Part shown: piece after piece, positions 6,131-18,889 of the stretch
Position numbering within the stretch: position 1 is the first letter of the stretch
Layout of the letters: every line of letters starts with the position of its first letter
Assembly (NCBI GenBank): GCA_013215095.1
Contig: JABSPM010000006.1
Coordinates: 1-64,000 of the forward strand
DNA: 64,000 nucleotides
Reading direction: 5' to 3'
Origin: Flavobacteriaceae bacterium
GTDB lineage: Bacteria; Bacteroidota; Bacteroidia; Flavobacteriales; Flavobacteriaceae
Program-made: the position numbers and the translations under genes
Notes under the pieces: model-generated
The model's input: only the letters and a program-made list of their open reading frames with translations
Databases searched by the model: none
Told to the model about the DNA's origin: nothing

Positions 6131-6166
6131 TTTGTGTTTTTATTTTTTTACTCTACATTTGTAGAG
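6131..6166 (+). promoter_or_regulatory. Promoter with overlapping BlaI-type operator
   Basis: TTTG (6131-6134), a 19-bp spacer and TACATTTG (6154-6161) match the Bacteroidota housekeeping promoter TTTG-N19-TAnnTTTG exactly. The palindrome CTCTACATTTGTAGAG (6151-6166) covers the -7 box and contains TACA-N2-TGTA, the core of known BlaI/MecI operators. A further half-site TGTAGA lies at about 6179-6184, just before the start codon. This predicts autorepression by the adjacent BlaI-like protein. Confidence 0.8.
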
Positions 6167-6188: not shown

Positions 6189-6554
6189 ATGAAATTATCA
6201 CAGACTGAAGAACAGTTGATGCAACATCTTTGGAATCTAGAAAAAGCTTTTATGAAAGATTTACGCGAAGCCTATTCAGAGCCAAAACCTGCAACAACAA
6301 CGATTGCTACACTACTTAAACGCATGACAGATAAAGGTTTCATTAACTATAAACTTTACGGAAAATCAAGAGAATACTATCCCCTTGTAAAAAAGAAAGA
6401 TTATTTCGCTAAGCACGTTAATAGCCTCATAAAAAACTTTTTTAATGATAGCGCATCTCAGTTTGCCTCCTTTTTCACCCAAGCAACTAATCTTAGCAAG
6501 GAGGACTTAGAAGATTTAAAAAAACTTATAGACACCGAAATTGACAAGAAATAA
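6189..6554 (+). CDS. BlaI/MecI/CopY family transcriptional repressor
   Basis: This 121-residue winged-helix repressor begins KLSQTEEQLMQHLW, has the recognition region KPATTTIATLLKRMTDKGF (about residues 35-53), and a C-terminal dimerisation and cleavage region, as in BlaI. It is followed after 3 bp by its partner M56 protein, the usual sensor-repressor pair in which the membrane protease triggers repressor inactivation. The operator overlapping its promoter supports autoregulation. No beta-lactamase gene is nearby, so the regulon is not antibiotic resistance by default. The inducing signal is unknown. Confidence 0.9.
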   Translation: MKLSQTEEQLMQHLWNLEKAFMKDLREAYSEPKPATTTIATLLKRMTDKGFINYKLYGKSREYYPLVKKKDYFAKHVNSLIKNFFNDSASQFASFFTQATNLSKEDLEDLKKLIDTEIDKK

Positions 6555-6557
6555 AGT

Positions 6558-8570
6558 ATGGGTATTTATATTCTAAAATCCGTTTTATGTTTTGCTATTT
6601 TATTAGCATTCTACAAGGTAGCTTTAGAACCTATGAGTATTCATAAGTTCAAACGATTCTATCTGCTTGCTATTTTTCCATGTGCACTTATCATTCCATG
6701 GCTTACATTTACAACTTATGTACAACTCAATTCAGATTACGAAACGTTAGCTTCAAATGATGCTGCTATATACCTTATCGATACAATCCCTGAAGAGTCC
6801 AATGGTTCAAACGACCTTACCATAATTCTATGTAGTATATATATCCTTGGCGCTGTAATTTTCCTTTTCAAATTTTGTCTTAACCTTTACAAGATTATAT
6901 CCAAAATAAAAACACATCTTAACATAAAAACAGGTCCATTTTTCAATGTACTCATCCATAAACTGAGTGTTCCACACACCTTCTTTTATTACATCTTTCT
7001 AAACAAAGAAGCCTTTGAACATGATCAAATACCAAAAGCAGTGTTACTTCATGAAGAAACACATGCTAGGCAACTACACAGTATTGACATTCTATTGATA
7101 GAACTATTTCAGATTATCTTCTGGTTTAATCCTCTGATTTATTTTTATAAAAAATCAACAAAACTCAATCACGAATTCTTAGCAGATACTGCGGTTTTAG
7201 CGGAAGGCATCTCAAGACCAGAATATCAAAAAACAATATTAGCATTCGCATCAAATACATATTTTCCTTTGGCAAATGCCATCAATTATTCATCAATCAA
7301 AACACGTTTTATAGTTATGAAAACACAATCATCAAAACACTCCATTTGGCTTAAAATCACATTACTATTTCCTTTACTTGCGATTATGCTTTTAAGTTTT
7401 AGCAACAAAAAAGAAGCTGTAAACACCTTTAAATCCAGCCATAATCGAGAAATCCATTTTAATGATACCGCTAGAAACATTAATATTGAAATTCTCAAAG
7501 ATGGCGCATACCTTATTGACGATGTAACTAGAGTGGAACGTACAAATTTCAGAAGCGTAATCACAACTATGCATCAAGACATAGCTGCTGAAATGAGAAA
7601 TAAAATTTTGAATATACACGTTGTTTCAAAATATAAAATTTCACATTCAGATATTTGGTTTATCTATAATGCACTATTGGATTATGGTTTCTATAGAATG
7701 GTTACAGAAAACCAGGAAATAATTAAAGTAAAAGGTAACACTCCCATTAAAGAAAAGCAATTCTATAGCACTCAAGCAAATGCTATTTCAACATACAACA
7801 ATATGGATAAAAATAATATGATTGTGTTATCAAAAGATGTTGTTCATTTAAAGTATTTATATCATCTGATGTCTTACAAGCAGCGTCAAAATGCGGAGCC
7901 ATTTCCTTATTTTCCAGAACCACCACCAATACCAAATACATCAAATACTATTAATTTTCCTCCACCTCCACCTCCTATTCCTGAAAATGCTTCGCCATTA
8001 GAAAAAGAAAAATATAACGTAGTTATTGCCGAATATGATACATGGTACAAAAAACATGTGCATAGTGCAGCAAATACAATTACCGGAGAGGATATAAAAG
8101 GTGTTATTAATGATGAAATACATCAAAACCCAGCTCCACCCCTGCCTCCAAAATCACAATTAGATTTTGTAATTGCCATGACAAAAAAGAACGGTATTTT
8201 CTATTTTGATGGTAAACACATCTCATCCGATGAAGCCATTAAAGCCTTAAAAAATGATCAAAACTTAAATATTGCAACGCAAACACAACACTCTAATACT
8301 CCAAAAATTTACATCTCCACACAACCCATTACAGAAAATAAAAAAGGAGAACTAGTAACAAAACCCAAACCCATTGATGAGGTTAAATCAGACCTAAATG
8401 AAGATGACCAAGGCCATGTATCTATAAATGGTAGGAATTATTTCTATACCATTCGAAATAAAGAAATCAAGTACTTTGATCGTTGGGGACAACGGGTTGA
8501 TGAAACAGGAAAACTCATTGAATCAACTACGGCTCATAAACATTCAAAGCATCCTAAAACAAAAGACTAA
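6558..8570 (+). CDS. BlaR1-like M56 family membrane metallopeptidase
   Basis: This 670-residue integral membrane protease pairs with the BlaI-like repressor just upstream. N-terminal hydrophobic helices lie at about residues 1-20, 35-53 and 88-108. The zinc protease motif HEETHARQ has its two histidines at residues 165 and 169, and a third ligand Glu is likely in NHEFLADTAV (about residue 206). A further helix (about 265-284) precedes a long, presumably periplasmic tail of about 380 residues. The tail contains a proline-rich stretch (NFPPPPPPIPE) and no penicillin-binding or TonB domain that I recognise. The tail is therefore the likely sensor, of unknown ligand. Confidence 0.88.
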   Translation: MGIYILKSVLCFAILLAFYKVALEPMSIHKFKRFYLLAIFPCALIIPWLTFTTYVQLNSDYETLASNDAAIYLIDTIPEESNGSNDLTIILCSIYILGAVIFLFKFCLNLYKIISKIKTHLNIKTGPFFNVLIHKLSVPHTFFYYIFLNKEAFEHDQIPKAVLLHEETHARQLHSIDILLIELFQIIFWFNPLIYFYKKSTKLNHEFLADTAVLAEGISRPEYQKTILAFASNTYFPLANAINYSSIKTRFIVMKTQSSKHSIWLKITLLFPLLAIMLLSFSNKKEAVNTFKSSHNREIHFNDTARNINIEILKDGAYLIDDVTRVERTNFRSVITTMHQDIAAEMRNKILNIHVVSKYKISHSDIWFIYNALLDYGFYRMVTENQEIIKVKGNTPIKEKQFYSTQANAISTYNNMDKNNMIVLSKDVVHLKYLYHLMSYKQRQNAEPFPYFPEPPPIPNTSNTINFPPPPPPIPENASPLEKEKYNVVIAEYDTWYKKHVHSAANTITGEDIKGVINDEIHQNPAPPLPPKSQLDFVIAMTKKNGIFYFDGKHISSDEAIKALKNDQNLNIATQTQHSNTPKIYISTQPITENKKGELVTKPKPIDEVKSDLNEDDQGHVSINGRNYFYTIRNKEIKYFDRWGQRVDETGKLIESTTAHKHSKHPKTKD

Positions 8571-17395: not shown

Positions 17396-18082
17396 CTATT
17401 CTTTCATAGGCTTGTAGCTTTTTTTACCTTCAGAATTCTGCATACCGTTTATGAATTCGAGATACAATTCTTGATAACTCGGAGATTTTGGTGACTCTTG
17501 TGCTATCATGCCATTATATGCCACGATTAGAAAAAGCAACGGCAAAAGCACTAAGTACTTTGTTAAATTTAATTTATTAGATTTTGATTTTTGTAACATA
17601 ACGATTCGTTTTTTGATTAATGATTTTTGAGAAAATGTATTGATAAAAGACACCTGTTTTGTGTCGAATATTTGGGTTAATAAATTTTGATAATAGTTTG
17701 CTTTATTTTGAGTTTTCAATGTTTCTTTATCTGCGATGTACTCGCGCAAAACTCTTAGCTTCGACTGGTAAATATAAATGAGAGGATTATACCAGAATAA
17801 GACACGTAGAATCTCAAAAAACAAAAGGTCTAAAGAATGCTTTTGTCGGACATGCACAAGTTCATGCCTTAAAACAATATCTTTTTCTTCTAGATTTTCT
17901 CCAATAAAGACGTAATTAAAGAATGAAAACGCAGCCGTACTATTCTTTAGATGCACTAAGAAAATATTGGAATGTTTGAGCAGCTTGTTACTTCTAATAA
18001 TTTTGTAGATATCAGTGATTTTTTTAACAAAAGCACTAGTGACACTAACATTCCAAGCCCTAACACATACTCCCATTGCCAT
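17396..18082 (-). pseudogene. Protease-domain fragment of the broken M56 gene
   Basis: True homology starts at about 18020 (KKITDIYKIIRSNKLL). It contains the zinc motif HELVH, the FWYNPLIYIYQ helix, the likely third ligand region REYIADKE, and a hydrophobic helix (YLVLLPLLFLIVAYNG). It ends at the amber codon. The upstream residues of this frame (MAMGVCVRAWNV) are out-of-frame noise. Confidence 0.75.
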
Positions 18083-18366
18083 TGAAAGGATGAAGAACCT
18101 TCGACGTTTGGAAGCGCCGCCATTAACAAGGGTTCTTCTGGAATCAGTTTTCCTAAAACGAGAGTTGGCAATCGAAAAATATTCTCTTGTGGTACAACTT
18201 TACTAAATGCAGGTATTTTTATAAATGGTAGTACAAAAGACATTATTGCCGTTATCAGAAGATATGCTCTATTCCAATTAAAGAACGTCTCCTTTCTGAG
18301 AAAAAACTCATAAACTATAAAAAAAAGCAACTGAAAAAAGGTGATTTGTAAAATATACTGCATCAT
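17956..18366 (-). pseudogene. N-terminal fragment of the broken M56 gene
   Basis: This frame starts MMQYILQITFFQLLFF and carries the first membrane helices (LLITAIMSFVLPFI, VLGLGMLVSLVLLL). It is homologous in position to the intact protein at 6558-8570. After the A7 run it continues for about 20 out-of-frame residues to a stop. It starts 6 bp after the blaI-like stop codon. Confidence 0.75.
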
Positions 18367-18372
18367 AAGGCA

Positions 18373-18747
18373 TTACTTTTCGTTTTCAATATCTCTTAGA
18401 ACCGACTCTAAGTCATTTAAACTAATGTCATTCTTCTTCATAAAGAACGACACCATACTTTTAAAAGAACCATGAAAATAATTATCTACTAATTTAGTTA
18501 TAGATTGATTACTGTAATCTTGCTTCTTAACAACTGGAAAATACAGATGACCCTTTCCTAGTTTTTCATAATCTACAAATCCTTTAGATTCTAAAATTCT
18601 AACAATGGTAGACACAGTATTATATGCTGGTTTTGGACTTGGCAACTCTTTTATAATTGCTTTGACATTCGCTTTTTCTAGCTGCCAAAGAATTTGCATA
18701 ATATCTTCTTCTGCTTTGGTGAGTTGCTTCATAATCGATTTTTTCAT
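18373..18747 (-). CDS. BlaI/MecI/CopY family transcriptional repressor
   Basis: This repressor of about 120 residues, paralogous to the one at 6189-6554, starts KQLTKAEEDIMQILWQLE, has a winged-helix recognition region KPAYNTVSTIVRILESKGFV and the FPVVKKQDYS linker. The start may be the ATG at 18747 (MKKSIMKQL) or at 18732 (MKQLTKAE), which fits the family better. It faces a divergent DUF456 gene across a palindromic operator region (18770-18840) and precedes its M56 partner by 6 bp. Because the M56 protein is broken, the repressor may now lack its inactivating protease. Confidence 0.9.
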   Translation of the reverse strand: MKKSIMKQLTKAEEDIMQILWQLEKANVKAIIKELPSPKPAYNTVSTIVRILESKGFVDYEKLGKGHLYFPVVKKQDYSNQSITKLVDNYFHGSFKSMVSFFMKKNDISLNDLESVLRDIENEK

Positions 18748-18769
18748 CTAATTATTTGTTTATATATTG

Positions 18770-18840
18770 AACTAAGAATTTAGTTCAATCACAAATATAA
18801 CTAAAAAATTAGTTTAAACTAATTTTTTAGTTATATTTGT
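18770..18840. promoter_or_regulatory. Divergent operator-promoter with a 50-bp perfect palindrome
   Basis: Positions 18791-18840 are a perfect 25+25 palindrome. Three exact copies of AACTAA-N4-TTAGTT lie at 18770-18785, 18799-18814 and 18817-18832. A TATATTTG box (consensus TAnnTTTG) is present on the plus strand at 18832-18839 and, by symmetry, on the minus strand at 18799-18792. TTAG lies 19 bp upstream of each as a possible -33 box. The minus box would serve blaI-M56, the plus box the DUF456 gene. Confidence 0.8.
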
Positions 18841-18889
18841 AACACAATTTATATTTCATCGTCATATATATAAAAACTGACGCTTAGAT

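Follow-up and report, generated by a model that had tools for sequence, protein, structure and literature searches.

The 50-bp perfect palindrome between a blaI-type repressor gene and a divergent DUF456 gene in this Flavobacteriaceae genome is, judged from its sequence and from that of its relatives, probably a tandem operator through which a BlaI-type repressor controls its own operon. On this reading DUF456 would be transcribed mainly from its own ECF-type promoter, and the perfection of the symmetry would be secondary. Throughout, "the window" denotes the whole stretch of DNA that was analyzed, 64,000 nucleotides in length.

Genes flanking the palindrome

The repressor gene (PF03965; minus strand, 18373-18747) encodes a Penicillinase_R domain (PF03965, E 1.2e-30) with the recognition helix region PAYNTVSTIVRIL, and its product matches MecI in a phmmer search (E 4e-13 over 117 residues). 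It is followed by a blaR1-like M56 gene (PF05569; minus strand, 17396-18366), whose frame is shifted close to a run of seven A (18019-18025), leaving open reading frames at 17956-18366 and 17396-18082. Pairs of BlaI and M56 genes occur widely among these Bacteroidota, and in nearly all of 80 named relatives a frame bearing the M56 motif follows blaI as one open frame, which in the window is broken. Sequencing error, a pseudogene or slippage are possible causes of the split; with its M56 partner frameshifted, this genome may have a switch that is jammed or in decay.

On the plus strand lies a DUF456 membrane protein gene (PF04306; 18890-19387). We compared this arrangement with the closest blaI orthologues from 29 other genera and with 80 named loci, which together with the window make 110 loci; these contain identical or near-identical sequences common to both sets, leaving 81 non-redundant sequences. 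A divergent DUF456 gene is present at 94 of the 110.

Architecture of the palindrome

Self-complementarity is exact over 50 bp (18791-18840; ACAAATATAACTAAAAAATTAGTTT followed by AAACTAATTTTTTAGTTATATTTGT in the window sequence) and ends there, with C at 18790 mismatched against A at 18841. An inverted-repeat scan identified this as the sole perfect long palindrome in the window; the other inverted repeats of at least 18 nt found there reach at most 84% complementarity. The element resolves into two operators, a 2-bp center between them and mirrored -7 boxes. O1 (AACTAAAAAATTAGTT, 18799-18814) and O2 (AACTAATTTTTTAGTT, 18817-18832) are both exact AACTAA-N4-TTAGTT sites, as is O3 (AACTAAGAATTTAGTT, 18770-18785), which lies toward blaI at a distance of 29 bp from O1 and is embedded in a longer repeat, ATTGAACTAA-N4-TTAGTTCAAT (18767-18790). 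The box TATATTTG is present at both outer ends, at 18832-18839 on the plus strand and at 18799-18792 on the minus strand. The initial annotation had described the palindrome, the three operator sites and the two boxes, and all of them stand.

The minus-strand box (18792-18799) is the -7 element of a predicted sigma-A-type blaI promoter. The published -7 consensus of the phylum is TAnnTTTG with its G at -5 (PMC6847099, PMC9723704); positioned by this consensus, the blaI start is predicted at about 18787, which would place O3 at approximately +3 to +18 of the transcript. O1 sits in the -33/-7 spacer and touches the -7 box, while the minus-strand half-site TTAGTT of O2 falls at -33 with an N19 spacer. 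The match at -33 is weak, with TTAG in place of TTTG, although the phylum generally has weak -33 elements (PMC6847099). A sigma-70 and terminator scan of the locus returned nothing useful and no terminator-like element.

Conservation of the operator pair

An O1/O2-type pair, defined by a spacing of exactly 18 bp and at most one mismatch in 24 positions, occurs at 104 of the 110 Flavobacteriaceae blaI loci, the window included, and because it is conserved at this spacing, chance is excluded as the source of the two adjacent sites. At four of the six exceptions (L037, L072, L085 and L092) an additional gene on the same strand stands in front of blaI, and the pair is found upstream of that gene, at 1.0-1.4 kb; at a fifth (L033, genome G012) a pair lies about 2 kb away, adjoining DUF456. 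The pair is also present at loci that lack DUF456. Since it moves with the promoter past an inserted gene and persists without DUF456, we assign the operator to the promoter of the blaI operon.

The blaI-side box, read as CAAATATA on the plus strand, is conserved column by column in 69-78 of 78 non-redundant sequences, counts that are descriptive in that these loci were picked for having the pair, the independent test being the 104 of 110. Toward blaI a third site is frequent, occurring at 10 of 30 loci when one genome per genus is taken and at 65 of 80 among close relatives, at distances of 23-34 bp. Conservation across genera, which extends from the pair to its spacing and to the -7 box on the blaI side, bears out the earlier proposal that a BlaI-like repressor has tandem operators on its own operon promoter, and autorepression of the blaI operon is a well supported prediction.

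Two features of the exceptional loci are worth recording. The extra gene between the operator and promoter and blaI (L037, L072, L085 and L092) indicates that the operon can have different head genes, and L072 contains two operator pairs.

The initial annotation had also proposed that a genome-wide search for AACTAA-N4-TTAGTT would define a regulon. The search led back to this locus only: exact sites in the whole 3.07 Mb assembly number three, namely O1, O2 and O3; one-mismatch sites in the genome show no excess (25 vs 48 for a reversed-pattern control); and exact sites elsewhere in the genomes of relatives occur at about the control level. A second pair with 18-bp spacing, away from blaI, was seen in one relative (L236:979-1012, equivalent to G018:C10:28978-29011), approximately 23 bp upstream of an open frame for a polytopic membrane protein that is DoxX-like by eye; it may be an extra target in G018.

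A candidate ECF promoter for DUF456

The two boxes had been interpreted as a symmetric bidirectional promoter serving both blaI and DUF456, and here the comparison points elsewhere. A DUF456-side TATATTTG or TAnnTTTG box occurs at none of the 109 other loci; the mirror image at 18832-18839 (plus strand) is confined to this genome. That place is instead taken by an ECF-sigma-type promoter motif, GTAAC-N16-CGTC (plus strand, 18839-18863 in the window, where its first G is also the last base of the mirrored -7 box). Counted with the first base of the second box free to vary, the motif is present at 80 of the 94 loci where DUF456 is divergent and at 1 of 10 without DUF456, compared with a frequency of 0.0003 in shuffled sequences. 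It also travels with DUF456: among ten DUF456 genes located away from blaI in other genomes (at least 55% identity), nine keep it, eight with CGTC and one with TGTC, and none of the ten has the operator. Across 12 genomes the exact pattern yields 42 sites vs 0 for the reversed pattern, with approximately 30 of them inspected for adjoining genes. Genes found downstream of further sites encode an M61 peptidase, PF00144 hydrolases, an ABC ATPase and small membrane proteins. DUF456 thus appears to have its own stress-sigma-factor (ECF-type) promoter, although a sigma-A start from 18832-18839 is possible in this genome. Given that the mirrored box is absent from relatives and that the ECF motif follows DUF456, we treat BlaI repression of DUF456 as no more than a possibility.

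A search of the genome with TGTAAC-N16-CGTCWTA, one mismatch allowed, recovered the DUF456 site and also one lying 43 bp upstream of an ECF sigma gene (PF04542/PF08281; G000:C31:19022-19600, L119 / L237), which has its own GTAAC-N16-CGTC promoter. The motif is found upstream of 26 of 27 orthologues of this gene, taken as the best match per genome (45-100% identity, the window's own genome included). The sigma operon continues, at the place where an anti-sigma gene was looked for, with a 163-aa protein that has one likely membrane stretch and no Pfam match, and then a DUF4252 protein. In the single case of G031, a genome without a close orthologue of the sigma factor (best E 9e-15), the blaI-DUF456 region (L027) also lacks the motif. 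From this co-occurrence we infer the identity of the sigma factor, while noting that several ECF sigma factors could read the motif. The candidate regulon takes in DUF456, a family of largely unknown function.

Our literature search found no paper on the GTAAC/CGTC motif. The motif resembles SM6 of F. psychrophilum, found at flavobacterial ECF promoters, in its CGT -10 box, the comparison covering that box; SM6 targets include an ECF/anti-sigma operon (PMC9723704). The B. subtilis DUF456 protein YqgC is likewise a membrane protein of about 160 aa, and a stress-sigma (sigma-B) promoter has been reported for its operon; it differs in its partner, sodA, in its role in manganese homeostasis and in having no BlaI link (PMC10888875).

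An operator variant within the BlaI/MecI/CopY family

By sequence, this is a new operator variant of the known BlaI/MecI/CopY repressor-operator system. The classic operator core is TACA-N2-TGTA (PMC7253601). Here the half-site is ACTAA, in the same frame with one core base different, and we therefore file the system as a variant. The initial annotation had set the motif apart from the classic operator; it is indeed different, but as an in-register member of the same operator family. The annotation was also right that the paralogous BlaI-M56 locus of the window (6189-8570) has a classic-type operator, CTCTACATTTGTAGAG, around 6151-6166. The two loci share repressor family and gene order; the paralogue differs in its TCTACA-N2-TGTAGA operator and its helix, PATTTIATLLKRM.

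The mec operators have longer flanks and an (ACT)ACA half-site. Like the bla and mec operons, whose repressors are of known structure (MecI, 1okr/1sax; BlaI, 1sd4/1xsd), the present system combines a PF03965 repressor, an M56 protease gene next in the operon and tandem operators on the repressor's own promoter; unlike them, it has the half-site ACTAA, in the same register, an 18-bp tandem spacing and a Bacteroidota sigma-A promoter. The CopY/CopR operators, RNYKACANNTGTMRNY, are alike in family and register and differ in half-site (PMC7253601). As this repressor has zero cysteines, it has no Cys-X-Cys metal site, unlike CopY/CopR. The geometry is nonetheless similar to one proposed for CopY, in which two operators mask the -35 and polymerase separately (PMC7253601): here the -33 element would fall to O2, and O1 would occupy the spacer together with the -7 box.

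A survey of about 190 BlaI homologues yielded three pairings of recognition helix and upstream operator. The helix A[YN]NT..ST goes with ACTAA-N4-TTAGT at a spacing of 18 (108 of 114); HYNT..ST goes mostly with ACTAT-N4-ATAGT at a spacing of 20, as best or tied-best operator in 28 of 33; and A-x-TT..AT goes with TCTAC-N4-GTAGA at a spacing of 20 or 28 (30 of 31). All three operator types share CTA and a single register with TACA-N2-TGTA. For three subclasses the set thereby offers a helix-to-operator correspondence that can be tested, and it adds a tandem geometry fixed at 18 bp. Helix class and ancestry are confounded here, however, and the correspondence does not pin down specificity residues. 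We found no paper on BlaI operators in Bacteroidetes, and one candidate source on M56 (PMC12578637) was discarded, "M56" there being a catalogue number only.

Proposed mechanism and alternatives

From the observed sequence, conservation and spacing, we infer binding, start sites and repression as follows. In the sigma-A promoter of blaI, a repressor dimer at O1 would cover the -7 box and the spacer; another dimer, bound 18 bp away at O2, would cover the -33 position, where the TTAGTT half-site replaces TTTG; and a third at O3, just beyond the predicted start, would block transcription toward blaI further. The operon of blaI, the M56 protease gene and downstream genes would stay off as long as the repressor is in place, its removal presumably depending on the M56 partner, as it does in bla and mec. 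DUF456 would be transcribed mainly from its ECF-sigma-type promoter, for which the most likely sigma factor is the ECF protein whose gene is preceded by this promoter too.

That the mirrored -7 boxes drive blaI and DUF456 symmetrically, with the repressor controlling both, gains appeal from the presence of both boxes in this genome, from the one-base overlap of O2 with the right-hand box and from the frequency of divergent DUF456 genes; we consider it distinctly unlikely, however, given a right-hand box unique to this genome, an ECF-type promoter at that place that follows DUF456 elsewhere, and an operator pair that persists where DUF456 is absent. A tentative addition to the autorepression reading, and not its opposite, is that repressor on O2, which ends 6 bp ahead of the ECF-type -35, also hinders the ECF holoenzyme and so puts DUF456 under both BlaI and the sigma factor. 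The gap between O2 and GTAAC is 6 or 7 bp at 53 of 81 loci and 5-10 bp at 75 of 81, which is compatible with such a gate, but it varies, unlike the fixed 18 bp, and DUF456 keeps its ECF promoter without an operator in other genomes; we regard this dual control as possible, short of probable.

It is highly improbable that the symmetry itself is what functions, as an extruded hairpin, cruciform or transcript structure, instead of the operators. The perfect self-complementarity would suit this, as would N4 spacers that are mirror-paired above chance (below), but the idea is already largely refuted, in that conservation covers the 18-bp spacing and the bases of the operators but not the symmetry beyond O1/O2, and the locus has no terminator-like element. 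A fold-back artifact of assembly is conceivable in a draft of 118 contigs, but is scarcely credible when relatives, single-contig genomes among them, show both sites with identical spacing and include some whose palindromes are perfect over as much as 40 bp. Autorepression through tandem operators, with a separate DUF456 promoter, is thus the reading we prefer, and the locus cautions against taking striking symmetry in one genome for mechanism without consulting relatives.

Origin of the perfect symmetry

Perfect symmetry over 50 bp is not kept in relatives, where perfect half-lengths range from 0 to 20 bp. Its perfection here is best explained as a secondary event, in which the -7 box of blaI was mirrored onto the DUF456 side. 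From the column frequencies of relatives, the mirrored right-hand box has a probability of 5e-5, or 0.005 over 104 loci.

The N4 spacers vary freely among loci and are mirror-paired in 20 of 81 vs 12.8 expected by shuffling (p 1.5e-4, from shuffles that ignore the relatedness of loci); they are not repeated directly. Two Algibacter loci (L084 and L090), whose blaI genes are 99.4% identical, differ in the operator at positions 7, 17, 25 and 28, one carrying AAAT/TTTT and the other the mirror-paired TAAT/ATTA, a template-switch-like pattern. Template-switch correction of quasipalindromes is a known mechanism (PMC8794818, PMC7202029), and the mirror-paired changes hint at such upkeep of the operator arms. 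We leave this as a hint because the shuffles ignore relatedness and a tree-based test of the N4 pairing, with too few independent pairs, gave no significance. That O1/O2 and the ECF promoter form an evolved two-input junction for divergent operons, responding to BlaI and an autoregulated ECF sigma factor, with arms held mirror-identical by repeated template-switch mutation and not by selection alone, strikes us as rather unlikely.

At three Aestuariibaculum loci without DUF456 (L044, L059 and L099), O2 is followed by AGAAGAAGCCCTATGGGTCTCTCACCTCCATAGGGCCTGTAAAT, with small differences among them, possibly a structured element.
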